Below, in pieces: positions 1,835-20,470 of a stretch of DNA of 20,608 bases. The DNA is from a virus. The notes beneath the pieces were generated by a model. It had not been told where the DNA came from. It was given only the letters and a program-made list of their open reading frames with translations, and did not search any database. Position numbers and translations under genes: made by a program. Each line of letters starts with the position of its first letter. The stretch's first letter is position 1. The stretch covers positions 1 to 20,608 of the IMG/VR virus record IMGVR_UViG_3300037104_000528. One strand, written 5' to 3'.

Positions 1835-2135
1835 GCGAGCACCAGAGAAACCGGGCAAGCCAGAAGCAGTCGCTCCCATGATGGACTCTTATCCGTCTTT
1901 CCATATCCACGATGACGCTCCTGCCGAGATTGTCAAACATGATATTGGCAAGGTCTATGACGCTAAAATAAAACTTACCTCCAAATCCGTCCATGAGGGC
2001 GATAAGAAAAGGATGTCAGTCGGGTTCGATGTCTTATCCGTCATGGTTGACGATGGCGATGCTAAGACCAAAGAAGCACGTGGAAAAGGCGCTGAGATAG
2101 CCGCCAAGATTAAAAAGGAAGGCATTGAACCTTAA
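1815..2135 (+). CDS. Hypothetical beta-rich protein upstream of portal
   Basis: 106 residues. A Pro/Lys-rich leader (KRAPEKPGKPEAV) is followed by DSYPSFHIHDDAPAEI and a core of predicted beta strands (KVYDAKIKLTSKSV, KRMSVGFDVLSVMVD), then a helical, Lys/Ala-rich tail. The YPSFxxxDxxxxEI opening followed by strands resembles small phage proteins often encoded next to portals, as I remember them. No enzymatic motif is visible. GGAGCGCAAGGAAC precedes the ATG. The last base of its TAA is the first base of the portal ATG, so the two are tightly coupled. Confidence 0.7.
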   Translation: MKEISLKRAPEKPGKPEAVAPMMDSYPSFHIHDDAPAEIVKHDIGKVYDAKIKLTSKSVHEGDKKRMSVGFDVLSVMVDDGDAKTKEARGKGAEIAAKIKKEGIEP

Positions 2136-4923: not shown

Positions 4924-6156
4924 ATGGCAGGAGAAAAGTTTTCAGAAAGAAAGACGCCTGAGGATATAGCCAAAGAAGCCCAGGAGAGGATCAACAAGGA
5001 AAAAGAGGCTAAGGCTGCGTTAAAGCCCGAGGCCGAGAAACCGAAGATAGAGGCGGAAAAGCCTGTTTCTGAAGCAGATAAGGCCAAATTAGAGGCGGAT
5101 AAGGCAAAACAGGCTGAAGCTGACAAAGCCAAGACTGATGCTTCCATTCTCGCTAAAGAAGAAAAAGACCTGACCGAGCCTGAGAAAGTCCGCAAGGTCG
5201 AACTATTAAAGGCGATAAAAGAAGACCCGGTCGCTAAGCGCAAAGCAGAGATACAGACAGATATCAATAAACTTATCTCCGAAAAGAAAGCCCTTGAAAA
5301 TGAAGTCGGGGATAAAGAGAAAGTAAAGGCTGAAAAGATTGCGCTTGAGGCAAAGATCAAAGCCCTCGAAAACGAGAAGGCTGAGGCTTTAAAGGGCAAG
5401 GAAGTAAAGACCGATGCCCAGATAGAGGCAGAGGAAGAAACCTCTCGGCTTGCTAAATATGCCGAAGAGGACAAGGAAAAGGAACGGCAGGATCGCCGGG
5501 AGATGTCCCATGACGAGCTTGAGGAATGGCTCTTGGAGGATCAGGTTTCCGCTTACGAATGGATAAGCAGAAGAACTCTACGGCGCGATAACGAGAAATC
5601 CAAACTGCGTGTCGATAAGCAGGTCAAGAATATATTGAATAAGCACCATGAGTCGGCTCTAAGGACTCAGGCGAAATATCCTGATTTGGATGTTTCAGCC
5701 CGTGAGAAAGAACTCTTAACTGAAGGCAAGTCCAAGAAAGAGATATTCGATATTCTCTGCAAAGAGAATGAAAAATACAGGGTGGGTGCCGAGATACTTA
5801 AAGAGCATCCGGACTGGTTGGTGTTTGAAGATGCACCCGAAAGGATAGTGGCGGAGATGGGAAAAAGGATGAACATAGCTTCTCCTGCCGCTAAGAAAGA
5901 AGAAGTTCCCATAGTCGACTTGGAGAAGGTAAGAACAGATGCAGCTGAAGCAGAGCGCCAGCGCATCGCGGCAGTCGACGCCGGGATAACATCAGGGCCG
6001 GGAGCTATAAATAAAAAAGAAGGCGCCCCCGAAACTGATTTCGAAAAAGCTCAGGCAGCAGTAGCGGCAAAAGCGGGCATCAGCCCGGAAGCACTCAAGA
6101 AGGCGAAGGAGAGACGTTCTAAGATACCCGGTTCAGGAGATTATAAAGGTGCGTGA
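4924..6156 (+). CDS. Probable capsid scaffolding protein
   Basis: 410 residues, ribosome binding site AAAAGGAGAAGAG before ATG. Residues 1-190 are an Ala/Lys/Glu coiled coil with repeated EAEKP/EADKAK units. Residues 195-310 are more structured, with DELEEWLLEDQVSAYEWI, DKQVKNILNKHHESALR and LKEHPDWLVF. The C-terminus (330-410) is again Ala/Lys/Glu rich and ends in a basic helix (SPEALKKAKERRSKI). A long charged helical protein between portal and major capsid genes, with a basic C-terminal helix, is the classic profile of a scaffold that binds capsid subunits and is removed on maturation. Sequence alone does not prove it, and no protease gene is seen. It could instead be an internal head protein. 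Confidence 0.65.
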   Translation: MAGEKFSERKTPEDIAKEAQERINKEKEAKAALKPEAEKPKIEAEKPVSEADKAKLEADKAKQAEADKAKTDASILAKEEKDLTEPEKVRKVELLKAIKEDPVAKRKAEIQTDINKLISEKKALENEVGDKEKVKAEKIALEAKIKALENEKAEALKGKEVKTDAQIEAEEETSRLAKYAEEDKEKERQDRREMSHDELEEWLLEDQVSAYEWISRRTLRRDNEKSKLRVDKQVKNILNKHHESALRTQAKYPDLDVSAREKELLTEGKSKKEIFDILCKENEKYRVGAEILKEHPDWLVFEDAPERIVAEMGKRMNIASPAAKKEEVPIVDLEKVRTDAAEAERQRIAAVDAGITSGPGAINKKEGAPETDFEKAQAAVAAKAGISPEALKKAKERRSKIPGSGDYKGA

Positions 6157-6365: not shown

Positions 6366-6887
6366 ATGGCAAAGGTAAGTAGGTATTTCGCAACGGGATT
6401 CATTCCGTTGGACAAGCCTCCCGCCAGAAGGCATGCCTTAATCGCCGCCAATATAAGCATATTGAAAGGCGATGTGTTATTCGAGGATGCCAACGGTGAC
6501 GTGACCAATACCCCGACAGCCCTGACGAATGAGGTCATGGGAGTAGCCGCAGCTCCATGCAATAACACGGCAGGCTCCACCGACTTCATCAACAGGAATC
6601 CAGCGGTTGCGGTTGCGGCTGCGGAGGCGTTTGATGTTGAGTATTACCCGATAGGATCACCGATTCAATATGTCGTTCCTGTTGCTCAGAACGCCTTGAT
6701 CACCCAGGCGGCGGTAGGCGACAACGTGGACCTTCAGGCGAACAACACTATTGACCACTCTGATGCGGTGACCGAAGGTTTATCGTTCATGATCGATGAG
6801 ATCGACGTTTCTGCGCCTGCGATAGCGGCTAACGCGTTTGGTTACGCGATAGGCCACTTCACCGTAGTTGGAACACAGGCTCCGTAG
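6366..6887 (+). CDS. Probable head decoration/stabilisation protein
   Basis: 173 residues, with GGAGGAACAAG before the ATG. Mostly beta-strand sequence rich in Ala/Val/Asn, with LKGDVLFEDANGDV, EVMGVAAAP, PIQYVVPVAQ and AVGDNVDLQANNTID. This pattern of G-D-x-V turns and 'GVA' strands resembles small beta-barrel decoration proteins of the DUF2190/lambda-gpD functional class encoded directly upstream of capsid genes. No signal peptide. The position immediately before the major capsid gene and the strong ribosome binding site fit a protein made in high copy. Family assignment is by pattern only. Confidence 0.6.
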   Translation: MAKVSRYFATGFIPLDKPPARRHALIAANISILKGDVLFEDANGDVTNTPTALTNEVMGVAAAPCNNTAGSTDFINRNPAVAVAAAEAFDVEYYPIGSPIQYVVPVAQNALITQAAVGDNVDLQANNTIDHSDAVTEGLSFMIDEIDVSAPAIAANAFGYAIGHFTVVGTQAP

Positions 6888-6940: not shown

Positions 6941-7858
6941 ATGACAAGAGCTGAAGTAGCACAACTCTATACGCCGATCTATGACGAGTTTATGCTCCAG
7001 GATTACGGCGAGGAGACACAGGTTCATCCCCAGCTCTTCGATGTCGTTGAAGACCACACCTATCAGTATAAGGTAGACGGTCTCTCCGGCTTAGGAGAAT
7101 GGGTATCAGCAACAGAAGATAGCTCGGGCGGTTTTGATGTCCCGGTATTAGGCTATCCGAAGACCTTTACACAGGCGAAGTTCTGGAAGAAATTCTACGC
7201 CTCTTTTGAGTCTGTAGATCAGGACGAATACGCCCTCTTGAAGAAAGAAGGCGACGCGCGCTCTATGGGTAGAGGCGGACGTTCGAAAGTTGAACGTGAT
7301 ACGGCAGGGGTCATCATAAACGGCTTCACGACCGCTTGCCCGGACGGGCAGTTCCTTTTCTCGGCATCACATCCGAAGAACTCGGATGAAACGGGCACTC
7401 TTTACGACAACCTGCTTGCAGGCCCGTTCTCACATGACAACCTTGAAGCTGCTGAGAAATTAATATCGGCGAACTTGAAAGATCCGATGGGGATACCGAT
7501 TCCCGTTCCCGAGAAGGCGATACTCTTTTATGCTCCGGCTTTACGTGGGGTGGTAGATAGGGTATTGAACGCCCGCGCTTTAGAGCGCCCGGGAACCGTT
7601 AACCGTGATATCAACCGCTTTGCCGGGAAATATGATCCGATAGAGTGGAGATATCTCGCCTCGGATATGGGCGGTAGCGATACCATTTGGGGTATCCTAT
7701 ATCCGACCTTGAAGATGTTAAAGATAGTCTGGTCGGCGAAACCGTCTTTTTCAAGCTGGATAGACGAGGACTTGGAACGCTATTTCTTCAAGGGCCGTAT
7801 GCTTTACGATACCGGCGCAACCGATTGGCGGTCAATCTTCGCCTCAACCGGCGCTTAA
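6941..7858 (+). CDS. Major capsid protein, HK97 fold (Mu gpT-like type)
   Basis: 305 residues, with AAAAGGAGAATGAA before the ATG. It builds the icosahedral shell. Recognisable parts are an N-terminal segment with YTPIYDEFMLQDYG, a beta-rich E-loop-like region (GEWVSATEDSSGGFDVPVLGY), the spine/P-domain helix segment (ARSMGRGGRSKVERDTAGVI, in pieces), then the LFSASHPKNSDE motif. In my experience 'LFSxxHPN' is diagnostic of the gpT/encapsulin-like capsid group. A-domain strands follow (KAILFYAPALRGVVDRVLN), and the C-terminus has a P-loop-like WRYLASD and FFKGRMLYDTGATDW. About 300 residues is usual for this group. No prohead protease or cleaved delta domain is evident. Confidence 0.85.
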   Translation: MTRAEVAQLYTPIYDEFMLQDYGEETQVHPQLFDVVEDHTYQYKVDGLSGLGEWVSATEDSSGGFDVPVLGYPKTFTQAKFWKKFYASFESVDQDEYALLKKEGDARSMGRGGRSKVERDTAGVIINGFTTACPDGQFLFSASHPKNSDETGTLYDNLLAGPFSHDNLEAAEKLISANLKDPMGIPIPVPEKAILFYAPALRGVVDRVLNARALERPGTVNRDINRFAGKYDPIEWRYLASDMGGSDTIWGILYPTLKMLKIVWSAKPSFSSWIDEDLERYFFKGRMLYDTGATDWRSIFASTGA

Positions 7859-7878: not shown

Positions 7879-8322
7879 ATGAAGAAGTTATTTGTAGTTC
7901 TCATGACTCTGGCCCTTTTGGTCGGAGTCGGTTCTAAAGCGTTAGCGACAGCCGATATCACGGCTTCCACAGGCGGAAGCTCGATAGGAACGGTCAAAGC
8001 GTATACGATGATCAACACAAGCGTCAATTACGAAGTGACCAATATTCCTGTCGGGACGATTACGCCCGGGGAGTGCCAGATACTTGGCTACTCGGCAAAC
8101 CTGATAAAAGGCGGGACACAGGACGGACTTTTCGGCATAAGAGACGCCATTTCTACTACGCCAATGGCGGATAGCTTTATCATAGCTGAAAACGAAGCTA
8201 CTGCTGCCCTTCCGGTCAACCAAATATTCCCAAGAGGGATGGATATATCCCGAGGAATAAGGGTTAATCAGTCAGGCATGACGAGCGTAACAATCTATTA
8301 CATAAGGTTAATAGCACCGTAG
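7879..8322 (+). CDS. Secreted beta-rich protein, family paralog A
   Basis: 147 residues. The start at 7879 has AAAGGA 11 nt upstream and opens with a textbook signal peptide (MKKLFVVLMTLALLVGVG, likely cleavage KALA|TADI after 23). A longer in-frame extension inside the capsid gene is not credible. The mature part is beta-rich: TITPGECQILGYSANL, AENEAT, then GIRVNQSGMTSVTIYYIRL at the end. The same framework recurs in the products at 9282 and 10909, so these are one paralogous family. No known family recognised. It may be a virion surface protein or a protein left on or outside the host cell. It directly follows the major capsid gene. Confidence 0.8.
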   Translation: MKKLFVVLMTLALLVGVGSKALATADITASTGGSSIGTVKAYTMINTSVNYEVTNIPVGTITPGECQILGYSANLIKGGTQDGLFGIRDAISTTPMADSFIIAENEATAALPVNQIFPRGMDISRGIRVNQSGMTSVTIYYIRLIAP

Positions 8323-8331
8323 GTGAAGACA

Positions 8332-9285
8332 ATGGCTTGGCTTCGGGGACTTACCTCCCCGAAGCCTTCCATCTTTGATTTAGCAGTCGCCGGGATTTTA
8401 TCTGTCGGATTCCTTCCTGATAGATTTTATCAAGGAATGTTCCTTGTCTTTTATTCCCTGTTCGTATTCTGCCTCACCTTTTTTATGAAGCCCAAGCGCG
8501 AGTTCAATTCCCTTCCGCTTGCCCTGTTCGTCTTATGGTCTTTTTTCATGATATTTGTCCACAATAAGATTCAGATAGTTCCGGGAAACTTTATGAATCA
8601 ATGGCTTAACATGTCGATAATGTTCGAAGGATTTATTTATATCCTGTTCGGGTATCTTTTTATAAGGAATATAGTTATCTATTCAAGCAACCTTAAATTC
8701 ATATTCTTGCTCCTTCCTTTCGCCCTTATCCCTACGATAAAGATTTATACCATCGGCGGCCAGATGACTATCTATATGGCGCTCATATTAAGCGTAATCA
8801 TTTATTTATTCCTAAAAAGGAAGAATACTATTGCCATAATATTAAGCATTATGTCGGCAACAGAAGTCATCGGCCTGTGGCCTTACGTGGTCAAAAAGTT
8901 CTCCTGCCGGCCCGTTGTATGGCACCAGCTATTCCTTGAAATACACAAACATCCTTTTATAGGCAGCGGCTTCAACCATACTTTACAGCCTAATAATATG
9001 ATATGGGTCAACTATATCGGCAATGTAAATTACGGGTGGATATTCAGGCATAACGACCTCTTGTCTATCGGGGCATACCTCGGGGCGGTAGTGATATTAT
9101 TCCTTGTCTGGTTTATCGCCGAGAGTTTGGTGAGGATAGGAAAGACTATTTATATTATTCCATTCTTGACAATAGCTTTAGCTTCATTTTTCCAATTAAT
9201 TTTATTTGATCCGGTAAAAGGGGCAATTTGTCTTACGTTAATCGGGGTGTGTCTCAAGGAAACTTACAAAGGAGAGAAGGCATGA
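8332..9285 (+). CDS. O-antigen polymerase/ligase-like (Wzy_C/WaaL-type) membrane protein
   Basis: 317 residues from the ATG at 8332 (AGGTGA 5 nt upstream; the GTG at 8323 has no ribosome binding site). About 8-10 hydrophobic segments span most of the chain. The large loop near 190-242 carries the Wzy_C hallmarks: R193-PVVW, H207-PFIGSGF, and H240-ND followed by L-SIGAYLGA. Known WaaL/Wzy enzymes need Arg and His residues in this periplasmic loop, about 50 residues apart, and R193 to H240 is 47. Family role: joining or polymerising undecaprenyl-linked glycans on the periplasmic face of the inner membrane. It is shorter than typical (about 400). In this late operon, flanked by secreted paralogs A and B, it may alter host surface glycans. 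Substrate unknown. Confidence 0.7.
   Translation: MAWLRGLTSPKPSIFDLAVAGILSVGFLPDRFYQGMFLVFYSLFVFCLTFFMKPKREFNSLPLALFVLWSFFMIFVHNKIQIVPGNFMNQWLNMSIMFEGFIYILFGYLFIRNIVIYSSNLKFIFLLLPFALIPTIKIYTIGGQMTIYMALILSVIIYLFLKRKNTIAIILSIMSATEVIGLWPYVVKKFSCRPVVWHQLFLEIHKHPFIGSGFNHTLQPNNMIWVNYIGNVNYGWIFRHNDLLSIGAYLGAVVILFLVWFIAESLVRIGKTIYIIPFLTIALASFFQLILFDPVKGAICLTLIGVCLKETYKGEKA
8339..8366 (+). promoter_or_regulatory. Perfect 11-bp hairpin in the first codons of the Wzy-like gene
   Basis: GGCTTCGGGGA (8339-8349), loop CTTACC, TCCCCGAAGCC (8356-8366). It begins at codon 3 of the membrane-protein gene, 17 nt after the stop of the preceding secreted-protein gene. No run of T follows (TTCCATCTTTG), so it is a poor intrinsic terminator. 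It could limit ribosome entry or mRNA decay for this gene. Confidence 0.6.
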
Positions 9286-9680
9286 ATAAGAGATTCTGGG
9301 CGGTAATAGCTTTATTGTTGGTTTCGGGGATGGCTTTCGGAAGTGATGCTTCCACGTCCAAACAGGTTTATTCATTCGGGTTGATAAACTCAGGCGCATC
9401 GAGGATGATAACCATAATCCCGACCACTTCCATAAGACCGGGGACGGACAAGATAATCGGGTATTCCATAATGCCGGCGAAGGCCGGGGCATCCGAGCTA
9501 TACGTCGCCATATTCGACCAGACGACTAACTGGCTTTCGGGTGAGGTATTCGCCGAGAACGAGGTCTTGACCCCTTACGGCGCGGGGGAGTTGTGGCCGT
9601 ACGGGAAGAAGATAGTACAGGGTGTCGTGGTTAGTCAGGGCGCTAATACACAGATACAAGTATATTTCATATCGGAATAA
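9282..9680 (+). CDS. Secreted beta-rich protein, family paralog B
   Basis: 132 residues. The ATG overlaps the previous stop (ATGA) and has AAAGGAGAGAAGGC upstream; the in-frame codons before it are not needed. Signal peptide MNKRFWAVIALLLVSGMAFG, likely cleaved AFG|SDAS after 20. The mature part matches paralogs A and C in order: SIRPGTDKIIGYSIMP, FAENEV, LWPYGKKIVQGVVVSQG, TQIQVYFIS. It has no cysteine. The family function is unknown; the all-beta pattern and small size suggest a surface or virion-decoration protein. It directly follows the O-antigen-type membrane gene, so A and B bracket that gene. Confidence 0.8.
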   Translation: MNKRFWAVIALLLVSGMAFGSDASTSKQVYSFGLINSGASRMITIIPTTSIRPGTDKIIGYSIMPAKAGASELYVAIFDQTTNWLSGEVFAENEVLTPYGAGELWPYGKKIVQGVVVSQGANTQIQVYFISE

Positions 9681-9683
9681 ACT

Positions 9684-10034
9684 ATGGGCGATAAAAACTC
9701 TCTAAAACTTGACATTACTTCTTTTCAGAATCTGGCTCTTGCTCCACTCAGCTACACTACGGTCCTGACCCGTCGCTTCAGGCTGAGCCAGATTCTTTTC
9801 CACGCCTCAGTCGCTATCACGGAAACCATAAAGACGACGTTTGTTTCCCATAACGGGACGAATTATAACGTGGTTCTGGACCAGATAACCCTGACCTCCG
9901 AACAGGACTATATCTTCGCCCCGAAGAATAAGATCGACTTCTACGAGGGCGACAAGTTGAAGATAGAATGCACCAACGCTAATCTAACGGGCGTGATCTA
10001 TGCCACAATCAAAACGGAGGAGAAACTGCTCTGA
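9684..10034 (+). CDS. Beta-sandwich virion-type protein without signal peptide
   Basis: 116 residues, 3 nt after the previous stop, with only a weak CGGA upstream. All-beta pattern: RRFRLSQILFHASVAITETI, NYNVVLDQITLTSEQDYIF, then KIDFYEGDKLKIECTNANL and VIYATIK. The 'EGDKLKIECTN' strand with a preceding 'P-x-N-K-I-x-F' resembles small beta-sandwich proteins common beside phage tail and fibre genes, as I remember them. Its strand order also resembles the secreted paralogs A-C, so a common fold is possible but unproven. A 12-bp inverted repeat lies in its first 40 codons. Probably a minor structural protein. Confidence 0.65.
   Translation: MGDKNSLKLDITSFQNLALAPLSYTTVLTRRFRLSQILFHASVAITETIKTTFVSHNGTNYNVVLDQITLTSEQDYIFAPKNKIDFYEGDKLKIECTNANLTGVIYATIKTEEKLL
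9727..9796. repeat. 12-bp perfect inverted repeat with 46-nt spacer
   Basis: AGAATCTGGCTC at 9727-9738 and its exact reverse complement GAGCCAGATTCT at 9785-9796, both inside the coding sequence of the 9684 gene. It could form a long-loop stem in mRNA. No protein-binding role is evident. Confidence 0.5.
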
Positions 10035-10912
10035 TGCCTACTAAAGAGGAACTTCAAAAAGAAATCAACGGTCTTGAGCTTGAGATAAGGGTTCTTCGTC
10101 CAAAAAGAGATGATCTTCAAAACGATATCAAGAACTTAACTATTAAGAAAGGTCAAGAAAGCGATAAGCTAACTGATGCTATAAAGAAAACTGCTGACGC
10201 TATGGACGAGTTAAAGGTAGTTCAAGGTAAAGTTTCGGATGCTAAGACGGAACTGAAGGATACCCAGTCCAAGACTACAGACGAAATAAATAAGCAGAAA
10301 GTTGAGCAGGTCAAGAACCAGAAGATCCTTGATGATATAGATATTGCCTCAAAAGATTTAGACAAGAAGAAATCAGATATTGCTTCCTCCGACCAGGCTA
10401 CGAAAGACTTGATTAAATCCCAGCTTGGAGAGAGGGCGAAACTTGACCAAGACAAAGCTGCTCATCAGGATAATGTAGATAAGTTCGAAGCGGATAAGAA
10501 AACCTCCGGGGATATCATTGCCGAGGCCAACGGATATCTGTCCCAAGCTAAAGACAAGAACGAGCAGGCTGTCAAATCTTTGGAGGAGGCCGGTGCCGCC
10601 AATTCTGCAGCCGGCGCAAAAGAGAAGCAGGCCGAGAACAAGATAAAGGAGGCTGACGACAGGGTGGCCCTCGCCAACGAGACCTTGAAGGAGGCCAGGG
10701 ACAAAAAGGTCGCTCAGGACAAGCGAGAGGCCGACCTCAACGACCGGGACGCCAAGCAGAACGAGCGTGACGGAACCCTAACTGCCGGCTACGCCGATCT
10801 TGAAACCAAGAAGACGGAGTTCGGAATCCTTGAGCTGAAGCTGAAGAAGATGGCCTACGAGAAGGGGCTTCAGGCTGAGTATGACGCACTTCAAAAGGAA
10901 GTAGGGAAATGA
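10034..10912 (+). CDS. Long coiled-coil protein, possible fibre shaft or tail rod
   Basis: 292 residues, starting in a TGATG overlap with the upstream stop and with ACGGAGGAG upstream. Essentially all charged helix with heptad-like hydrophobic spacing from residue 5 to the end (KEEINGLELEIRVLRPKRDDL-type segments, later EADDRVALANETLKEARD). No signal peptide, no Cys, no enzymatic motif. Codon choice changes along the gene: A/T-ending Lys, Glu and Asp codons dominate early, whereas GAG, GCC, GAC and AAG dominate from about 10570 on, as if two sources had been joined. Possible roles are a trimeric fibre, a linker, or an internal or ejected protein. The family is unknown. Confidence 0.7.
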   Translation: MPTKEELQKEINGLELEIRVLRPKRDDLQNDIKNLTIKKGQESDKLTDAIKKTADAMDELKVVQGKVSDAKTELKDTQSKTTDEINKQKVEQVKNQKILDDIDIASKDLDKKKSDIASSDQATKDLIKSQLGERAKLDQDKAAHQDNVDKFEADKKTSGDIIAEANGYLSQAKDKNEQAVKSLEEAGAANSAAGAKEKQAENKIKEADDRVALANETLKEARDKKVAQDKREADLNDRDAKQNERDGTLTAGYADLETKKTEFGILELKLKKMAYEKGLQAEYDALQKEVGK

Positions 10913-11316
10913 AAAAGCTTATAGTCGCTTTCCTTCTATTCGCGATTCCGGCATTTGCTGGGCCTCTTGACGGGCAGGACTCTAATCTGCCTCCTAAGAT
11001 ACCTCAACTGGCCTACACCTCGGATAACAATTCGGGGGGATACCTCATTACGAACGTATCCACCTCTATAATCGATCCTACGACTTGTAAGATACTTGGC
11101 TTCGAGGTTCTGCCTTTGTCGGTCAATGGGGAGTTCGTCGCTACCCTCCACGATACCATTACTTCAATTTCCAACACGACGATAATGGGGGAACTTGAAT
11201 GCGTCAACCAGAGTTTCGCCGGTGCGTGGTATCCGTATCCGGTCAGGTTATTCAACGGGCTTCGCATAATCCAGGGAGGCCAGACGAGAGTCATTGTCTA
11301 TTATACGAGATATTAA
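10909..11316 (+). CDS. Secreted beta-rich protein, family paralog C
   Basis: 135 residues. The start is an ATGA overlap with the coiled-coil gene, with AAAAGGAAGTAGGG upstream. Signal peptide MKKLIVAFLLFAIPAFA, cleaved AFA|GPLD after 17. The mature part shares the A/B framework: SIIDPTTCKILGFEVLP, GELECVNQ (where A and B have AENE), WYPYPVRLFNGLRIIQGGQT, RVIVYYTRY. Two cysteines (in TTCK and LECV) could pair if it is exported. It lies immediately upstream of, and overlaps by 23 nt, the tail-spike gene, which may mean that it works with the spike. Function unknown. Confidence 0.8.
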   Translation: MKKLIVAFLLFAIPAFAGPLDGQDSNLPPKIPQLAYTSDNNSGGYLITNVSTSIIDPTTCKILGFEVLPLSVNGEFVATLHDTITSISNTTIMGELECVNQSFAGAWYPYPVRLFNGLRIIQGGQTRVIVYYTRY

Positions 11317-14266
11317 AAGGATAGTTTTATCCGCTTTTATATTATGCCTTATCATTCCACAGGCACATTCAAACGGATCGTGGTATGGCGGGAGCAGCGG
11401 AAGTGGCGGCGGTGGAGTAAGCCAATCTTATGTCTTAAATAATTTTTTATCCCTCGCCGCCCCCAACCAGACCGTCACCCAGACACCTAATTTCAGCGGG
11501 GGGCTGACTTCTGGTGGTAATACTGTTTTAACTTCCGTTACAGGCCTCCTCGCCACAGGTGCGACCACAGGGGCGACAGGACAGATTCAACCTTTTACTC
11601 TTGGCGTAAGCGGTGCAGGGGTTATGCTTCATCCCTCCGCTACGGTAGTCGTTGCTTCATCCACTTCAAGGGGCAAGGCGGAGGCCGATTATGTCTGCAC
11701 GGGGACGAATGATGATGTAAAAATACAGGCAGCAGTTACTGCTATTGGTGCGACGGGCGGGAAGATAGTCCTCTTGGAAGGTATTTACAATATCTCAAAC
11801 AGCATAGATTTTTCTGGTTGTGGGGCTATCTCCCTTCAAGGGGCGGGGATGTCAACCGATTGGAAATATAACAAGGGGACTATCCTCAAATTAGCTAATG
11901 GGGTCAACAAACCCATAATAGTAAAGACCGAACCTATCTGGGCACAGGACTATATTTCCCCGATTTCCATAACGAACATTATGATAGACGGCAACAGGCT
12001 TAGTAATGCCAATAGCGCTTGCGACGGGATAATTTTTACCAATGTCGCCCACTCTGTAATAAGGGATGTCGGTATTTTCAGGTGCTATAACGCCGCAATC
12101 CACCTTAAACAATGTTATGGGGTAACGATAGACAACTGCACGTTAGGGGGTTGCGATTCTTCAGGAACTCATACTAATGGGGCGATTATAGCAGGGACGT
12201 GGGTTCCGAACGGATATGGTATTTACATAGATAGCAGTCCTGACAACAGGATAAGTAATTGCTATATTTGGCATAATTCAATAGATGGGATTTATGCAAC
12301 TACTGCTTACGATTTTGCCGCTACTGAAAATCTTGTAATCAATGCCTGTTCATTAAACTGGAATGATGGTTGCGGAGTTAAACTTATAAAAGGGACTAAT
12401 GCCCTCTGGGTAGGGAGGATATTCAATTCACATCTCGACGAGAACGGAACCTATGGTTTGTATGTTTCAGGCAACGTAACGAACTGGAAGATTATCGGAT
12501 GTAATTTCTTCGGCAACCAACGTATCGCAGGAACAGATACTTATGCTATCTATATGGCAGGAACAAGTGGGTATCTGGTTCAAGACTTCGATTTTCTTGG
12601 TTGTGCTTTTGATATGTATAACGCACAATCGGGGACTATCAATCAAAATGCTTATGTTCAAGGTGTAAGATTTCTCGACAATAACTTTGCATCTGGACAA
12701 AGCGGTATAGGTATAGGTCCGGATGGGACAGTAAATCCTACCAATCCTCTGACGATAAAAGGAATAGCGGGTTATAACAATCAGATAAGGTTGTATTCTC
12801 CTTACGCTACAACTGGCGGTGCTTTTTTAGGTGGGGGAGATAATAATAATTTCAACTTTGCTGGCGGTGCAGAAGTTTACAATGGTTCTTGGATAACTCA
12901 CGATGCAACACCCACTATTGTCCAAGGCGATGATGGGGCGATAACCTTCTATGCCGATACAGGGCAAACTCCTGAAACCGCTTATACTCCTACTTCAAGG
13001 ATGGCTCTTAATTCAACAGGGCTTACTGCAACTGTAAATATTACCGCTCCTCGACTTGTATCTAATATAGGAATAGGCACAGCTCCGTTTGTAGTGACCT
13101 CTACGACGCAAGTCGCTAACCTGAATGCGGCTACTGCAGGAACGGCGGGTAATGTCACAGGCACAGTAGCCGTCGGCAATGGCGGAACGAACCATACCAC
13201 CTTTACCGCCTATATGCCGATAGCGGCAGGCACTACTGCGACTGGAGCATTTCAGTCGATAGCTACAGGAACGCAGTATTATCCTTTGGTTTACAATACG
13301 AGTTCTTCCTTGCCGTCATTTACATTATTACCCGTCGCTGGGGGCGGTTCGGGAGTGGCTTCCCATACGGCTTATATGCCTATCTGCGGCGGCACAACTA
13401 CAACAGGAACAGAACAATCCATCGCTACTGGCACTCAATACTATCCGTTATGCTATAACACATCGGGTTCGTTACCAACATTCCAAGTTTTACCCGTTGC
13501 AGGTGGTGGGACGGGGGCGACTTCTGCGAGCATTACCGCTTTCAATAATATCACGGGTTTTAGTGCCGCTGGGACGACAGGAACGACATCGACGAATCTA
13601 GTATTTTCGACATCGCCAGTTTTGGTTACCCCTAATATTGGTGCGGCAACAGCAACTTCCGTGACGGCAAATAGTGGAGATTTGATTCTTAAAGGTGCGA
13701 GTGGAGGAACTCTTAAACTTTATGCCAATACCTCCGATACAGATTATATTCATATTAACGGAAATAATGGCTTTACAAATACCACCGAAATAAACTACGG
13801 AGCGAATAACGACTGGTATCTAAGCTATGGCACGACGGGACACGTATATATGAGAAGTGGAGCAAATATCAAATTTACTTTGGCGGCAGATGGCTCGACT
13901 CAGTTATCTAAATACGGGGCAGGTGCGGCAACCTTCGATGCAAGCGGTAATATCACCTCTGCTTCTGATGAGAGGTTAAAAAATATTCAGGGCGAATTTA
14001 AGGCAGGTCTTCCTGAAATACTTAAAATAAATCCCATCCTTTACAAGTGGAACAAAAAATCAGGTCTTGAAACCGAACATACTTATGTGGGTTTCTCGGC
14101 ACAGGAAATAAAGAGACTTATACCAGAGGCGGTAGGGCAAGATTCCAAAGGATATTTGACATTAAATGACAGAGGAATTACCGCCGCACTCGTCAATGCG
14201 GTCAAGGAACAGCAAAAAGAGATAGACGACTTGAAGGCACGGCTCGACAGGGCAGGGATAAAATAA
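11294..14266 (+). CDS. Tail fibre/spike: signal peptide, beta-helix, repeats, S74 chaperone
   Basis: 990 residues from a TTG at 11294; no ATG is available near, and upstream signals are weak (GAGAG), so the exact start is uncertain. Order: n-region and signal-like hydrophobic stretch 9-26 (AHS|NGS); Gly/Ser linker 27-42; a short trimeric adhesin-like part; a pectate-lyase-3-type right-handed beta-helix from about 120 to 480 (DVKIQAAVTAIGATGGKIVL, LEGIYNIS, then N-x-C turns); fibre domain to 620; two 54-residue repeats 638-745; a fibre segment; and a C-terminal Peptidase_S74 intramolecular chaperone. The S-D-E-R-L-K motif at S891-D892 marks the expected self-cleavage site, releasing about 100 residues. 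Role: host-surface recognition and possibly glycan degradation. No catalytic residues are assigned. Confidence 0.85.
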   Translation: MSIIRDIKRIVLSAFILCLIIPQAHSNGSWYGGSSGSGGGGVSQSYVLNNFLSLAAPNQTVTQTPNFSGGLTSGGNTVLTSVTGLLATGATTGATGQIQPFTLGVSGAGVMLHPSATVVVASSTSRGKAEADYVCTGTNDDVKIQAAVTAIGATGGKIVLLEGIYNISNSIDFSGCGAISLQGAGMSTDWKYNKGTILKLANGVNKPIIVKTEPIWAQDYISPISITNIMIDGNRLSNANSACDGIIFTNVAHSVIRDVGIFRCYNAAIHLKQCYGVTIDNCTLGGCDSSGTHTNGAIIAGTWVPNGYGIYIDSSPDNRISNCYIWHNSIDGIYATTAYDFAATENLVINACSLNWNDGCGVKLIKGTNALWVGRIFNSHLDENGTYGLYVSGNVTNWKIIGCNFFGNQRIAGTDTYAIYMAGTSGYLVQDFDFLGCAFDMYNAQSGTINQNAYVQGVRFLDNNFASGQSGIGIGPDGTVNPTNPLTIKGIAGYNNQIRLYSPYATTGGAFLGGGDNNNFNFAGGAEVYNGSWITHDATPTIVQGDDGAITFYADTGQTPETAYTPTSRMALNSTGLTATVNITAPRLVSNIGIGTAPFVVTSTTQVANLNAATAGTAGNVTGTVAVGNGGTNHTTFTAYMPIAAGTTATGAFQSIATGTQYYPLVYNTSSSLPSFTLLPVAGGGSGVASHTAYMPICGGTTTTGTEQSIATGTQYYPLCYNTSGSLPTFQVLPVAGGGTGATSASITAFNNITGFSAAGTTGTTSTNLVFSTSPVLVTPNIGAATATSVTANSGDLILKGASGGTLKLYANTSDTDYIHINGNNGFTNTTEINYGANNDWYLSYGTTGHVYMRSGANIKFTLAADGSTQLSKYGAGAATFDASGNITSASDERLKNIQGEFKAGLPEILKINPILYKWNKKSGLETEHTYVGFSAQEIKRLIPEAVGQDSKGYLTLNDRGITAALVNAVKEQQKEIDDLKARLDRAGIK
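13205..13528 (+). repeat. Two tandem 54-residue (162-nt) repeats in the tail fibre
   Basis: Copy 1 is 13205-13366 (residues 638-691) and copy 2 is 13367-13528 (692-745). Both read TAYMPI-x2-GTT-x-TG, then SIATGTQYYPL-x-YNTS-x-SLP-x-F and LPVAGGG-x-G. The DNA has diverged mostly at third positions. Typical fibre-shaft repeats; copy number could vary between relatives. Confidence 0.85.
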
Positions 14267-15376: not shown

Positions 15377-15802
15377 ATGAAAGCGGTGATTTTGGTAATA
15401 GCGCTAATGTTAGTTGGCTCATTTGCGATGGCACAAGGCGTAACCCTCAATCTACAACAGGGTGGTGTTATTACTTGGCGAGGGGAAGTAAAGAACATGA
15501 CAGGTGTCAAGGCTTATGAGTTAGTGGACGATAAGCCCATATCAAACTGGCCAAAATGGGCAAAGGCTCTTTTGGTGGGCGATTGCGCTACGGCGATATG
15601 GGCTTATGACGGGGCCAACCTGTCGGCCGGTGGAGTTTTAATCGGCAAGAACCTCGGGACTATATCACAATATGTTCCGGCGATCAAATGGGACTTGTTA
15701 AATCAGGTAGAAGTCCACGCTTATCCGATAGGCGTATTGATTGAACGTGTTGACAGCAAAACAAGAGTAACCGGAGTATCAGGGCTTTCGATTAAGTTTT
15801 AG
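15377..15802 (+). CDS. Secreted protein, possibly outer-membrane associated
   Basis: 141 residues from the ATG at 15377, which has a very strong ribosome binding site (AAAGGAGGCGGT). Signal peptide MKAVILVIALMLVGSFAMA, cleaved AMA|QGVT after 19. The mature part is beta-rich (QQGGVITWRGEVKNMTGV, TAIWAYDGANLSAGG, VEVHAYPIGVLIERV) and ends SIKF with a terminal Phe, as outer-membrane strands often do. It is too short for a usual porin barrel. An in-frame ATG at 15290 with its own AAAGGA would add 29 residues and turn the signal peptide into an internal span. No family recognised. It is distinct from paralogs A-C. Confidence 0.75.
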   Translation: MKAVILVIALMLVGSFAMAQGVTLNLQQGGVITWRGEVKNMTGVKAYELVDDKPISNWPKWAKALLVGDCATAIWAYDGANLSAGGVLIGKNLGTISQYVPAIKWDLLNQVEVHAYPIGVLIERVDSKTRVTGVSGLSIKF

Positions 15803-15821
15803 ATCAAACGGAGGGGCGGCA

Positions 15822-15908
15822 TTGAATAAAACGGCGTTCACCTTTAAGGAAAATGCATCAAATAACGGACAAGAGCTCAAGCTGCCCCTTTCCGTTGAAA
15901 GGAAATAA
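15822..15908 (+). CDS. Possible 28-residue micro-protein (TTG start)
   Basis: The otherwise empty 109-nt gap between the secreted-protein gene and the adaptor gene holds ACGGAGGGGCGGCA followed by TTG at 15822. The frame runs 28 codons (MNKTAFTFKENASNNG, ending VERK) to TAA at 15906. The ribosome binding site is better than for many neighbours, and the end supplies AAAGGA for the adaptor gene. It may be a leader peptide or a real micro-gene; length gives little support. Confidence 0.4.
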   Translation: MNKTAFTFKENASNNGQELKLPLSVERK

Positions 15909-15911
15909 ATA

Positions 15912-16604
15912 ATGTTAATGAGCGATGTGATTGCCCAGTTTCGTAATAATAATCCAGAAATGCCGTCTAACGTCGTATCGGACGCCATTCTGCAGAATTG
16001 GCTTTTGACCGGGGATAAGGAGTTTTGCGCGGTAACGAGATGTATAATCTCAGATATCGCCATTAACTCCGTTGTCGCAACTACTATATACGATGCTGTG
16101 GCAAGATACGATCTCACGACTCTGATAACCAAATTTTATGATATAGACGAATATCCCGGAGGCGGGGTGATATATGATAACAAGCGCCTTACTAAGACCT
16201 CCCCGGCTGAGCTTGATATAAATACTCCTAACTGGAGGACAAGGGCCGCTGGGACACCTAAGAAATTTTATCGCAGGGGAAAATATCTTTATTTTGATAT
16301 CCCCGTTTCGGCGGTTAAGACTATACGGATATATACAGTCCTGATATCGGACGACTGGACACCTGCTCCCGATGTCATGCCTTTTAATCAACTCTCATAC
16401 ATGATCCCCTATCATTCATCGATGGTCACCTATCTTGAATGGAAGGCGAAGCTTAAAGTCCAGAAATTTGATGAAGCCACGGCGAAGCGGACGGAGTTCT
16501 TAGATTATGCGAAATGGACGAAAACACAAATCGGCGGGAATAAGTATTCATCCATCCATTACCAACCCCCGAATGGAACTTTAGGGAATAATGATGAAAC
16601 TTAG
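15912..16604 (+). CDS. Head-tail adaptor (connector) protein, podovirus type
   Basis: 230 residues. ATG at 15912 (a second in-frame ATG at 15918), with GAAAGGAAATAAATA upstream. N-terminal helices (MSDVIAQFRNNN, DAILQNWLLTGDKEFC), then a beta section with TPKKFYRRGKYLYFDIPV and KTIRIYTVLI, then helices (YHSSMVTYLEWKAKLKVQK). The 'GTPxxFY..g..l.f.P.p....i.i.Y' pattern is common in connector proteins that sit under the portal and join it to the tail (P22 gp4 and T7 gp11 functional class). It lies directly upstream of the nozzle-type gene, the order expected in podoviruses. No signal peptide, unlike its downstream neighbour. Confidence 0.65.
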   Translation: MLMSDVIAQFRNNNPEMPSNVVSDAILQNWLLTGDKEFCAVTRCIISDIAINSVVATTIYDAVARYDLTTLITKFYDIDEYPGGGVIYDNKRLTKTSPAELDINTPNWRTRAAGTPKKFYRRGKYLYFDIPVSAVKTIRIYTVLISDDWTPAPDVMPFNQLSYMIPYHSSMVTYLEWKAKLKVQKFDEATAKRTEFLDYAKWTKTQIGGNKYSSIHYQPPNGTLGNNDET

Positions 16605-18912
16605 AGCTTTACTTTTAATAGCGTTCTTATCAATATCATCGCTTGTCTTTGGTCAGGATGCTACTAAGAACCAGATATTCTCCCTTGACGATTTCAGCGG
16701 GGGCTTGAATACCCAACTCTCCCCTGAATCTCTCCCGGGGAAATATGCTGTTATCTGCGAGAGCGTCCGGCTTGATTCTTCCTTAAAAGAACTCGTTAAG
16801 CGTCCTTTGATTTATCTTTACGGCACGACTTCTCCTTCCGAAGCCATTACGGGAATGCACCGCCTTTATCTTAAAGACGGGACGAAGGTCTTAATAGTCA
16901 ATCATGGTTCCCAGATAGATACCGGAAACGATACCACCGGGGCTTTTACCGAGATCCTTGCTTTGACTTCCGGCAATCATCGCTGGCAATGGCTGACGTT
17001 TAATAATGTGGGGATAGGAACGGATGGATATAACCAACCTGTCAAATATGACGGTTCTTCTGCTTCGGCAACTTATCTCGGGACAGCTCTTGCTACCGCT
17101 GATGCTGTCGCTGGCAATCCGAACGGAACTTATACCTATAAAATCTCTTATTATTCGGCCTCTTACGAAATCCTCTTTAATGTAGTTTCTAATCCTGTTA
17201 CGGTTTCAAGCAAGAAAATAGACCTTTCGATGATACCGATAGCCCCGACGACTTACCTTACCGAAAACGTAGTCGGAAGAAAAGTCTACCGCATAGCTAA
17301 CGGCGGGGTGATTTGGAAACTTCTTTCTAACGGGACGATAGCCGATAATTCTACGACAACTTTGCTTGATAACGACGCTGATGGGACTTTGGGAGCGGAT
17401 TATCCTGCCGGAAATGCGACTTATACCCCGCCAAAAGGAAGACTTTGCATCATAAACCGCAACAGGGTATTTATCGCTAACGACCCGAATTATCCGTCAA
17501 GGATGTACTGGTCTGAAGACGGGCTTCCCGATGTCTTTATTACCGGACATTACTGGAATTTTAGGCCGGATGACGGCGATGAGATTACCATGTTAAAACA
17601 GCTCTATGGGCAATTCATCGTCGGAAAAACTAATACCATCCAGTATTTCAATACCGATGACGCCGACTGGTCTAACTGGGTAGCCACAGATCCTTATACT
17701 TTCGTCGGTTGTGTTGGGATGTATACCTCCGCCAATACCCCTCTTGGAATTTTATATCTCGGCAAAGACGGGCTTTATAACTTTTCCGGGACGTATTCAA
17801 AACTTATATCTTACGCCGTCAATTCGGTCGATGAAGATATCTCCCCTTCCAATATAGCGAATACCTGGGGGGAATTTAATAACAATACTTATTACCTTGC
17901 CTATTCTTCCAAGACGGTAGGCGGTTCCGTAAATAACAGAGTTCTTGTATATGACCTATTGTCAGATGCCTATGAGATAGACACCGTAGGGATAAACTGT
18001 TTTACCTCTTTTTCCGGAGGAAGTGACGGGGGATTGTTATATGCGGGTTCATCTTCTTTGGGAAATATATACAGCTTCCAGCTCGCCTCGCAGAGCATTG
18101 TTCATTCGATAAGCACGGATTTTTCGGGGACATTCACCAATTCAAGGATTATCCCTCCCGAGGCCGGTGGCGATCTGTCAAACCCTATTATAGAATTGGC
18201 TTGGGATGTAACGATAGACGGATATGGCGCAGGAACGATAGACGCTGCAACAGGTATCATAGACCGTCCGACTACGACGGGTTCATATATCTCACAAGTC
18301 TTATCTACTCCTAATATCGTATCTTATGACAAGTTATTCTGGAATAGCGTCCTGCCTGCCGGGACAACGGCTACTTTCGCAGTAAGAAGCGGGGCAACTG
18401 CGGCAGCTTGTGCGGTAGCGGCATGGTCAGCTGAATTTTCCAACGCGGCGGGATCGGATATCTCAGCTGTTGGATCCGGAGCTTATACCCAATATCGGAT
18501 AAGCCTTGCTACCGGAGATATTGCAATAACTCCTACCATAATCAAGTCCGGCGGATTCGATGTCAAGCTCACCTATAATACGCTGGGATATGCCTACGAT
18601 ACCTCGATACCTCTTCATTGGCAGAGCGGGTTCTTTGATATGGGTGCTCCGGTAAACGATAAATCCCTGACTAAATTCTCTATGGTTCACGAAGGCACAA
18701 CGGGTATCATTACCGTCAAGATAACAAACGAATTGGGGATTTTTCAGACTTTTAGCGTAGACCTTTCAACTAATCCCGAAACTTACGAAGGGTATTTTGA
18801 CGGCGGACTTCTGCGGGGGAGAAGGTTCAATGTCGATATAACGAACAGCGATTTGAATCCGTTAACGGTAAAACAGATAAGGATAATATACAATGTTGAG
18901 CCGCTTACTTAG
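16591..18912 (+). CDS. Tail nozzle/stabilisation-type protein with a signal peptide
   Basis: 773 residues; ATGATG at 16591 with TTAGGGAAT upstream, overlapping the adaptor gene by 14 nt. After a signal-like N-terminus (MMKLRALLLIAFLSISSLVFG, VFG|QDAT after 21) comes FSLDDFSGGLNTQLSPESLP, then KELVKRPLIYLYG and a long beta-propeller-like body. The 'F-x-GGLN...kRp' opening followed by repeated beta blades is typical of P22 gp10/T7 gp12-class proteins forming the tail nozzle that keeps DNA in the head. Length is larger than P22 gp10 (about 470), closer to T7 gp12 (about 794). The C-terminal 200 residues are beta-sandwich-like. A signal peptide on such a protein is unexpected. Confidence 0.7.
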   Translation: MMKLRALLLIAFLSISSLVFGQDATKNQIFSLDDFSGGLNTQLSPESLPGKYAVICESVRLDSSLKELVKRPLIYLYGTTSPSEAITGMHRLYLKDGTKVLIVNHGSQIDTGNDTTGAFTEILALTSGNHRWQWLTFNNVGIGTDGYNQPVKYDGSSASATYLGTALATADAVAGNPNGTYTYKISYYSASYEILFNVVSNPVTVSSKKIDLSMIPIAPTTYLTENVVGRKVYRIANGGVIWKLLSNGTIADNSTTTLLDNDADGTLGADYPAGNATYTPPKGRLCIINRNRVFIANDPNYPSRMYWSEDGLPDVFITGHYWNFRPDDGDEITMLKQLYGQFIVGKTNTIQYFNTDDADWSNWVATDPYTFVGCVGMYTSANTPLGILYLGKDGLYNFSGTYSKLISYAVNSVDEDISPSNIANTWGEFNNNTYYLAYSSKTVGGSVNNRVLVYDLLSDAYEIDTVGINCFTSFSGGSDGGLLYAGSSSLGNIYSFQLASQSIVHSISTDFSGTFTNSRIIPPEAGGDLSNPIIELAWDVTIDGYGAGTIDAATGIIDRPTTTGSYISQVLSTPNIVSYDKLFWNSVLPAGTTATFAVRSGATAAACAVAAWSAEFSNAAGSDISAVGSGAYTQYRISLATGDIAITPTIIKSGGFDVKLTYNTLGYAYDTSIPLHWQSGFFDMGAPVNDKSLTKFSMVHEGTTGIITVKITNELGIFQTFSVDLSTNPETYEGYFDGGLLRGRRFNVDITNSDLNPLTVKQIRIIYNVEPLT

Positions 18913-19174
18913 CGTCTTGGTGTTTTTATTTATCTCGGGAAACTGTTTCGCTATCACCATAATCCCAGAATATTCGGATAAGACTATTTCGGTATTAAAC
19001 AAGAATTTCGCAGAACTGGATAAAAAGATAAATCATATCCAAATAGTAAAGACTGCCCCTAACGGGAACATGAAAGCCGAGAGGGGAACATTGATAATAT
19101 ATGACACGGGAGCGGCGCTACAGCTCTGGATGGATACGGACGGAAATAAAACATGGGTGAAAATTGGCCCGTAG
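18893..19174 (+). CDS. Small secreted tail-associated protein
   Basis: 93 residues, overlapping the nozzle gene by 20 nt, with ATAAGGA 9 nt before the ATG. Signal peptide MLSRLLSVLVFLFISGNCFA, cleaved CFA|ITII after 20. The mature part has SVLNKNFAELDKKINHIQ, a short coiled coil of the 'LN-x-NF-x-x-L' sort seen at the start of phage fibre proteins, followed by a small beta unit (GTLIIYDTGAALQLWMD). Its place right after the nozzle gene corresponds to the needle/plug position in P22, but it is far shorter than the P22 needle. Minor tail or fibre-connecting protein is the best guess. Confidence 0.65.
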   Translation: MLSRLLSVLVFLFISGNCFAITIIPEYSDKTISVLNKNFAELDKKINHIQIVKTAPNGNMKAERGTLIIYDTGAALQLWMDTDGNKTWVKIGP

Positions 19175-19181
19175 AGGAGAG

Positions 19182-20084
19182 ATGATGAAAAGATTTCTTG
19201 CTATTCTGCTATTGGGATTGATGGTGTCCAGTCCGTCTTATGCTATAACAGATTGGCGTCAAGGGAGCAATACTACTCCATTACAGGGAACGAGTCAGGT
19301 TTCGGATATCGATACCAATTCCGAAAACTATGCCTTTGCTCCGCTCGACAGGTTATTAAGCTATCACATCCGAGGATGTTCTCTTACTTGGACAAGCACG
19401 ACCGTTGTTACTGTCGCTGCCGGTGAGGTCACCTGCTTAAATGGAGCCGGAACGATTAAAAGGATGAGGCAGAATACCGTTACTACTACGGTAAATACCG
19501 CTATTGTAGGCGTAGGCGGGATAGATAGTGGTTCTCATGCCGGAGCGATTCAGGCTTCTACGTGGTATTCGGTATATGCCGTAGCGGATTCCGCCGCTAC
19601 AACGTTTACGGCAATAGCAGCAGAGCAGGGCGTTGCGCTTTCCGATGTTACCTATTATCGCTATATCGGATCAGTTTTAACCGATGGCTCTAAAAATCTT
19701 CTTGGGTTTGAATGGTTCGGATATGGCCCTGATGTACTGATAATGTGGAATATCCCTGTATCGCTTACTACAACTCCTTCTCTGGGAGCCTGGTCGTCGG
19801 CGCTTTCTTGCACGATGCCTTCAACCGCTGTCTGCGGAATATTCGGAACGTATGTGGATGAAAATAATTACTCCGAGATATATTTAAGACCGAATGGATC
19901 AACGTGGAATATACTTCCGCAGGATGGAAATTACACAGGAGTAACCGGCACCAATCCCCATCACGGGGCGCAAAGGATTTGCATGACGGATTCAAGCCAG
20001 CAAATACAGTATTATAATACTGCCGCTTCCAGTACGACTAATAACATGGTAATCAGTTTAGAGGGATATTATTTCAACAGGTAA
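19182..20084 (+). CDS. Probable tail fibre/minor tail protein with a signal peptide
   Basis: 300 residues from ATGATG at 19182, with TAGAGGAGAG upstream (the TTG at 19164 has none). Signal peptide MMKRFLAILLLGLMVSSPSYA, cleaved SYA|ITDW after 21. The mature part is beta-rich: LSYHIRGCSLTWTSTT, VTVAAGEVTCLNGAGT, VGGIDSGSHAGAIQASTWYS, then YYRYIGSVLTDG. The 'GGlDtG...a.sTWY.vy.i..' and 'RYIGSvltD' signatures recur in fibre-associated phage proteins, as I recall. The C-terminal 130 residues form a separate beta domain (WSSALSCTMPSTAVCGIFG, ISLEGYYFN). Five cysteines in the mature chain. Likely a structural or receptor-contact protein. Confidence 0.7.
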   Translation: MMKRFLAILLLGLMVSSPSYAITDWRQGSNTTPLQGTSQVSDIDTNSENYAFAPLDRLLSYHIRGCSLTWTSTTVVTVAAGEVTCLNGAGTIKRMRQNTVTTTVNTAIVGVGGIDSGSHAGAIQASTWYSVYAVADSAATTFTAIAAEQGVALSDVTYYRYIGSVLTDGSKNLLGFEWFGYGPDVLIMWNIPVSLTTTPSLGAWSSALSCTMPSTAVCGIFGTYVDENNYSEIYLRPNGSTWNILPQDGNYTGVTGTNPHHGAQRICMTDSSQQIQYYNTAASSTTNNMVISLEGYYFNR

Positions 20085-20149: not shown

Positions 20150-20470
20150 ATGAGATACTTATTTTTAGCAGTTTTAATATTTACGGCGAATGTTTGCTTC
20201 GGGCAAATGTATGTGGCTATTGACAAGGAAACAGGCGAAGTCAAAGGAACGGTCGATGTCAGGCCGGAAAATATTGGTGGTTGGGCTAAAATATATATAA
20301 TGAAAATGGTTGATGAGAGTTATCGCGGCAAGAAAGGTTACGAGATAAAATTCGAAGGTGGGAAACTCCGTCCCGCTACTCCCTCTGAAATTGCGGCATC
20401 GACGGTAGTGGATACTTCAGGGCAACTGACGACTGACGATATGAAAAAACTGAAGGCGCTTATTAAGTGA
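20150..20470 (+). CDS. Small secreted protein of the tail region
   Basis: 106 residues; AAAAAGGAGAAAA before the ATG, after a 65-nt A/T-rich gap. Signal peptide MRYLFLAVLIFTANVCFG, cleaved CFG|QMYV after 18. The mature protein opens YVAIDKETGEVKGTVDV and contains KKGYEIKFEGGKLRPATPSEI, a pattern like small fibre-associated or fibre-assembly proteins whose C-terminus carries 'LRPAT..EI'. The end (TTDDMKKLKALIK) is a basic helix. Function unknown. Its leader resembles those of the head genes in being A-rich, so it may be well translated. Confidence 0.65.
   Translation: MRYLFLAVLIFTANVCFGQMYVAIDKETGEVKGTVDVRPENIGGWAKIYIMKMVDESYRGKKGYEIKFEGGKLRPATPSEIAASTVVDTSGQLTTDDMKKLKALIK

Follow-up and report, generated by a model that had tools for sequence, protein, structure and literature searches.

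The DNA considered here is the whole of the IMG/VR virus record IMGVR_UViG_3300037104_000528 (20,608 bases, possibly a genome fragment, referred to as the window), and the question that it raises concerns one gene at 16591..18912, which encodes a protein with the features of a podovirus tail nozzle and yet carries what looks like an export signal. A nozzle must bind the adaptor and portal ring, which forms in the cytoplasm, and tailed phages are taken to assemble there. How can a part of the tail be addressed to a compartment other than that of its binding partner? The initial annotation of this gene left three ways out, namely that the nozzle role is wrong, that the signal does something else, or that the tail is joined to the head in another compartment, and it proposed a structural comparison of the mature chain with P22 gp10 and T7 gp12, in which an adhesin or a propeller unrelated to nozzles would speak against the nozzle role.

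The nozzle precursor and its head-tail partner

The nozzle precursor (773 residues, ATG start) is encoded on the plus strand, as are all features of the window named below, by the sole nozzle gene found in the record. Its N-terminus reads MMKLRALLLIAFLSISSLVFG followed by QDATKNQIFSLDDFSGGLN, with cleavage predicted between the two. The first 21 residues (16591..16653) follow the pattern of a Sec/signal peptidase I-type signal peptide, with a basic n-region, a hydrophobic core and small residues at -3 and -1, here a V-x-G box with the predicted cleavage site VFG↓Q (rule score 4.58, cut at 21). The mature chain (752 residues, 16654..18909) would begin at Q22 and continues with the opening DFSGGLN...VKRP. 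The rule score and the occurrence throughout the family (see below) confirm the clean 21-residue signal described in the initial annotation. A mis-called gene or an alternative start was considered and rejected, since no in-frame ATG, GTG or TTG codon lies between the signal and the motif in the nozzle open reading frame (ORF) of the window.

The fold of the mature chain was predicted by AlphaFold2 from a 28-row alignment with a predicted local distance difference test score (pLDDT) of 88.3 and a predicted template modelling score of 0.77; a prediction from the single sequence (pLDDT 31.5) was not used. In a Foldseek search of the PDB the best 31 rows were all chains of phage tail entries, the first unrelated row standing at rank 32. 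Comparison by VIA-align yielded Z scores of 31.7 for Pa223, 28.8 for the crAss001 muzzle, 26.0-27.5 for P22 gp10 and the Sf6 nozzle (P22 gp10: 27.5 over 423 residues at 3.5 A), 26.9 for the GP4 nozzle chain 8jov_A and 21.9 for T7 gp12 (437 residues, 3.7 A). Unrelated propellers reached Z scores of up to 22.4 and spanned 265-294 residues only. The known nozzles cover the model from mature residues 2-10 to 747-752, and they align from their own residue 1-5 in 23 of 24 phage rows (14 phages, the rows being taken as nozzle chains from titles and sizes), that of cyanophage A4 from residue 19. Because known nozzles begin at mature residue 2-10, the signal presents itself as an added leader, the removal of which leaves the usual start of a nozzle. 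At the level of sequence, profile comparison by hhalign linked the protein to gp11 of Paenibacillus phage API480 (E 1e-7, 152 columns), the signal-less product of a gene in nozzle position; no sequence similarity to P22 gp10 or T7 gp12 was detectable, and no match was found when the nozzle sequence was compared with those of solved structures. The family phrog_511, labelled 'internal virion protein', matches three of nine nozzles (best 5.5e-17), and each of the 12 contigs with a nozzle match has a single one.

The gene immediately upstream (15912..16604), the last bases of which overlap with the start of the nozzle ORF, encodes the putative head-tail adaptor and has no signal. A 12-row profile of this family matched the GP4 adaptor gp81 (8jov_G, present in 12 chains; E 2.8e-4), nine of 12 members matched phrog_399, and a direct comparison of the profile with API480 gp10 and T7 gp11 gave no match. 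Adaptor and nozzle families stand side by side in 11 further contigs. As the adaptor leads to GP4 gp81 and the nozzle to 8jov_A, a single solved complex contains the matches of both partners. The protein is thus of a known kind in its fold, gene order and partner, and together these bear out the assignment to the nozzle class and render the first way out unlikely. The comparison with P22 gp10 and T7 gp12 returned an end-to-end nozzle match, and neither an adhesin nor an unrelated propeller emerged from it. We regard the protein, on the strength of its predicted structure, as a genuine podovirus-type tail nozzle.

Signals among nozzle relatives and among head and tail genes

When the single nozzle protein was used as query, no relatives were found in IMG/VR or in the genome collection. 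The portal as query retrieved 15 contigs, of which six were examined for a nozzle and one has a 47%-identical one; nozzle alignments of two and nine rows as queries retrieved 10 and 34 loci. Searches of phage collections and cultured phages gave remote records only, and two scans of the genome collection with the nozzle gave no relative, be it host or prophage. The resulting nozzle set comprises 35 loci (the window and 34 others), 29 of which are testable for a signal: L025 is truncated at the 5' end, and five others share the N-terminal part of L029. By the fixed rule 28 of these 29 carry a signal, and the remaining one, L037, carries it by eye. At this locus (L037:4180-7060) no in-frame ATG, GTG or TTG is present within about 150 bases upstream of the signal, which may reflect an unusual start codon or a sequence error. 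In an alignment of 25 signals (L054 and duplicates excluded) A or G occupies position -1 in 23 rows and Q position +1 in 18, and the -3/-1 pattern is kept, while the mean pairwise identity (300 pairs) is 0.29 in the signal columns versus 0.47 in the mature chain. Signal chemistry and the small -1 residue persist despite this divergence, as would be expected if selection acted on the presence of a signal and not on its exact sequence. No in-frame start near or between the cleavage site and the motif was found in 22 of the 28 rule-positive rows, the window among them. By their N-terminal sequences, all testable members of the nozzle family have the signal.

About nine genes of the window have predicted signals of this type, a point that the initial annotation of the nozzle gene does not mention. 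Their distribution was recorded for genes called in 17 contigs, with 23 clusters present in at least four of the 17 and a signal score of at least 4.2 counted as positive; the rows are related by descent and hence non-independent. Signals were found in the nozzle (12/12), in a small tail-region family (11/11, from five contigs) and in two further small families (4/4 each). They were absent, in a total of 62 proteins, from the adaptor (0/13), the portal (2135..4429; phrog_332 connector, E 0.0054; 0/11), a scaffold-like protein (4924..6156, its role being assigned by position and composition; 0/11), a virion structural head protein (6366..6887; phrog_1731, E 6.9e-4; 0/11), the major capsid protein (6941..7858; phrog_371, E 1.6e-6; Mu-like gpT, E 1.8e-5; 0/11) and an ejection-like family (0/5). 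Six of 11 members of the family of window gene 19182 are positive, and the five misses open, by eye, in stretches resembling the reverse strand of an HNH-type gene. Membrane-protein families gave 4/8 (Wzy-type) and 1/5 (8323-type). Of the remaining clusters, one small family has 3/4 signals and eight have none (0 of 8, 7, 7, 7, 7, 6, 5 and 4).

Domain searches covered part of the proteins, namely ten with a signal, a further mixed set and ten large ones called signal-less. Among those with a signal are a tail fibre in contig G012 (match 2.7e-36) and a collar-domain protein in G011 (E 7e-22); gene pieces whose ends fell inside genes were read uncut, and so read the fibre-like genes G004 19513-20895 and G009 from 19025 both have signals. 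Two very large proteins with a GH108 lysozyme domain are without signal and are taken, by size and place, as ejected proteins. Of the very large proteins L066:1727-6262, L063:430-4644 and L070:11553-18029, one shows ART-PolyVal (1.2e-5, below cut-off) and two show GH108 plus peptidoglycan-binding domains. By these predictions the signals are split by role between head and tail.

As controls, chosen late or structural genes in fetched stretches of other phages were scored by the same rule at their annotated starts. Positives numbered 0/11 in P22 (22 annotated genes), 0/4 in T7 (of 7), 1/24 in crAss001 (of 31; gp27, lysis), 1/8 in API480 (of 16; a weak score of 2.84), 2/22 in MW202554 (of 33), 0/8 in Pf-WMP4 (of 15), 0/36 in CRP-902 (of 49), 0/25 in ct7ZZ929 (of 28), 0/16 in ctf1B273 (of 51) and 1/17 in vir526 (of 25). 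With the same gene caller and cut as for the contigs, T7 gave 0/5, P22 1/25 and 1/25, API480 0/23 and MW202554 4/32. The structural genes of P22, T7, crAss001 and a Roseobacter phage have no such signals, and MW202554 is the only control with several positives. This remote podovirus (Manatee Spring podovirus, our locus L057) shows N-termini resembling signals in its fibre-, lectin- and collar-type proteins, and its nozzle lacks one; the genes concerned are 316-2856, 2837-3430, 3430-4221, 10985-11479 and 15521-16546, those starting at 3430 and 15521 being recognised by eye only.

Proposed assembly in two compartments and its alternatives

Of the three ways out, joining in another compartment is the best supported, because the signal occurs throughout the nozzle family and in other tail-region genes and is absent from head genes. 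We assume that in this uncultured lineage of short-tailed phages much of the outer tail, with nozzle, fibres, collar-type and small tail-region proteins, would be exported by the Sec pathway of the host, that signal peptidase I would cut the nozzle leader to leave a chain beginning almost exactly where other nozzles do, and that the cleaved outer-tail proteins would be held outside the cytoplasm. Capsid, portal, adaptor and ejection-type proteins would stay in the cytoplasm, where heads would fill with DNA and be capped by the adaptor. Holins breach the inner membrane while the outer one is still intact, and in extracts filled P22 heads can take up tail parts. At lysis, a holin opening the inner membrane would allow the two pools to mix and the nozzle to dock on the adaptor, the last assembly step thus being a late one outside the intact cytoplasm. 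To this reading, in which export, cleavage, storage and late joining are what we infer, we assign a probability of roughly 0.56. More tentative, and in our estimate falling somewhat short of an even chance, is its extension to a whole two-compartment lineage, in which cytoplasmic heads would comprise portal, adaptor and ejection proteins, the outer tail would be Sec-exported, matured outside and perhaps sugar-modified by a membrane enzyme of Wzy_C type that is encoded amid the same genes, and particles would become infectious only after the inner membrane is breached.

Several observations weigh against late joining of an exported tail. P22 heads without gp10 lose their DNA, so that waiting heads would need another closure. 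The signals are not found throughout the tail genes: among these, the family of window gene 9684 has one in 1/12 members (that one being a neighbouring gene joined by similarity), the coiled-coil family 10034 in 0/7, and the 201-residue product of G004 27951-28556 (= L019:7951-8556), which matches a PHROG tail fibre adhesin at 6e-31, has none, so that export of the outer tail has at least one exception. The first large proteins to be examined for tail domains had been chosen for having signals; the ten large signal-less ones searched later included this one tail match. The signal rule is home-made and is not SignalP, it cannot separate a cleaved signal from an anchor (P22 Rz is also flagged), and the cut of 4.2 was chosen after the scores were known. 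A Z score of 21.9 for T7 gp12 is by itself indecisive, because unrelated propellers reach 22.4, and the only other match of the adaptor profile, an apparently unrelated G10 protein, has an E of 0.0019, which is noise level. Disulfide formation as a reason for export was rejected for want of a clear contrast in cysteine content (per 100 residues: nozzle 0.76, portal 0.76, adaptor 1.08, small tail-region family 1.15). Finally, the overlap of adaptor and nozzle genes, found in the window and in several relatives, suggests coupled translation, which would be odd for partners bound for different compartments; 6 of the 28 rule-positive rows have an in-frame start between cleavage site and motif or close by; and part of the protein could, if the signal is leaky, stay in the cytoplasm and assemble there in the normal way. 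As a separate observation, G004 27951-28556 follows signal-bearing tail genes and is cupin-like by eye.

The gene overlap, the six rows with an internal start and the unsignalled fibre-type gene would suit dual targeting, in which the fraction escaping Sec builds virions in the cytoplasm and the exported fraction serves another purpose, for instance the blocking of receptors or of superinfection. However, a contig holds a single nozzle match, the internal start is missing from the window and most rows, and it is not evident how a DNA gate would serve to block receptors, so that we consider dual targeting improbable. Only slightly more credit is due to the view that the leader is no export signal in the producing cell but a phage-specific N-terminal module, which might aid assembly, be removed by a protease of the phage, or remain in the virion and act on a membrane at infection. 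It is in line with the position of the leader ahead of the first residue of the nozzle fold, and passages of a study on phages of P. gingivalis ascribe signal-like sequences on major capsid proteins to cleavage by a prohead protease (PMC10367356). The leaders obey the rules of signal peptidase I in their -1 residue, though, and are found on unrelated proteins (fibres, collar, small proteins) but not on the capsid, and a retained leader would place about 20 hydrophobic residues ahead of the known nozzle start; we therefore hold this view to be unlikely. An unusual cell plan of the host, with heads packaged at, or passing, the membrane before lysis and joining in the intact cell, would be compatible with the two genome scans, in which the nozzle had no relative. 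The phages have lysis-type enzymes (an SLT protein with a signal), however, and no budding-type gene turned up, although no search was aimed at such genes, and we rate this plan as very unlikely. Least probable of all is a secreted cell-surface beta-propeller or adhesin in place of a nozzle: a signal peptide and the Z scores near 21-22 of generic propellers would fit it, but phage nozzles match nearly the whole mature chain with Z scores of up to 31.7 against 265-294 residues for unrelated propellers, and the gene follows a GP4-type adaptor and has the API480 gp11 match.

Neighbouring genes, known systems and implications

The nozzle gene is followed by three genes with predicted signals, a small protein at 18893..19174 (GNCFA↓I; it resembles a needle or fibre by position and look only, and none of the 17 contigs has a homolog), the tail-region protein at 19182..20084 (SSPSYA↓I) and a small protein at 20150..20470 (NVCFG↓Q; its score of 3.66 is below the 4.2 cut, and its sole contig homolog has a signal). 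Upstream, the gene at 11294..14266 (TTG start, IPQAHS↓N) encodes a tail fibre or spike with beta-helix and S74 chaperone (Pfam Beta_helix 5.9e-21, Peptidase_S74 1.3e-9; PHROG tail fibre 1.3e-11), and that at 15377..15802 another signal-bearing protein (GSFAMA↓Q). The small tail-region proteins at 9282..9680 (LVSGMA↓F or FG↓S) and 10909..11316 (AIPAFA↓G) belong to the family with 11/11 signals; a third small protein at 7879..8322 (GSKALA↓T) is by eye their paralog, and as its start falls inside the 7687 ORF it was left out of the family table. All three may perhaps decorate the virion. The 116-residue protein at 9684-10034, which has no signal, has relatives in 11 contigs, adjoins the adaptor in G007 and is a candidate for a cytoplasmic head closure or decoration. 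Polytopic membrane proteins stand amid structural genes in the window (8323-9285), in L018 (14488-15702; Wzy_C, O-antigen ligase, E 6.7e-11) and in L068 (11615-12796; Wzy_C 7.3e-5, below the curated cut-off); that of the window has no Pfam match and is likened to the other two by look and place. An enzyme for sugar polymers or protein glycans beside exported tail genes would be suggestive. HNH-type endonuclease-like genes, recognised by sequence look only, lie between structural genes of G004 (L018:11530-12282, L019:1329-1982 and L019:13084-13707).

Among known systems, P22 gp10 and the Sf6 nozzle are alike in fold over the whole mature chain, and P22 gp10 follows gp4 as the nozzle follows the adaptor; P22 gp10 differs in having 472 residues, no signal and no detectable sequence similarity. 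T7 gp12 (Foldseek E 1.9e-16, 6r21_a) is similar in size and its gene follows gp11, but it too has no signal and no sequence similarity, and its Z score is 21.9 at best. In GP4 (8jov) both partners, gp81 adaptor and nozzle, match, and the GP4 nozzle chain aligns from its own residue 2, which leaves no room for a signal. The crAss001 muzzle gp44, which a passage of PMC10172136 describes as having T7-nozzle-like parts, shares the likeness in fold but has a large extra domain and no signal, and 23 of 24 crAss001 genes tested are signal-less. API480 gp11 is the sequence-level relative with a similar FQDFSGGMN opening; it differs by the missing signal and by its Paenibacillus host.

A glutamine at +1 is frequent in the nozzle signals (17 of 26 distinct N-termini by the rule, besides the 18/25 of the alignment), and exported proteins of Bacteroidetes have Q at this position in 71% of cases on average, according to a passage of PMC5837995. 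Among other rule-positive proteins, a set that includes some membrane proteins and odd frames, it was found in only 7/100 (10/100 if nearby cuts are allowed). The assignment of a Bacteroidetes host by this Q-rule was therefore dropped; the +1 glutamine is not lineage-wide and names no host.

Among the open-licence papers listed, preprints not included, none was found, as judged by titles, the beginnings of abstracts and some passages, to describe a nozzle or a range of tail genes with export signals. The nearest case is that of the Nixviridae phages of P. gingivalis, for which parts of PMC10367356 describe Q-rule signal peptides on five genes of unknown function. Phage genes would likewise be adapted there to the Sec export of the host; here the signals are on a nozzle and on tail-region genes instead, and overall they do not obey the Q-rule. 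One 2026 paper, in the passage concerned, takes a missing signal peptide to favour the assignment of a tail protein (PMC13097943). If our reading is true, annotation that treats a signal peptide as the mark of a non-virion protein would be misled. Export of nozzle and fibres in a phage lineage would contradict the assumption of cytoplasmic assembly and would raise the question of what retains the DNA until the nozzle is in place. The pattern is sharp enough for an experimental test.

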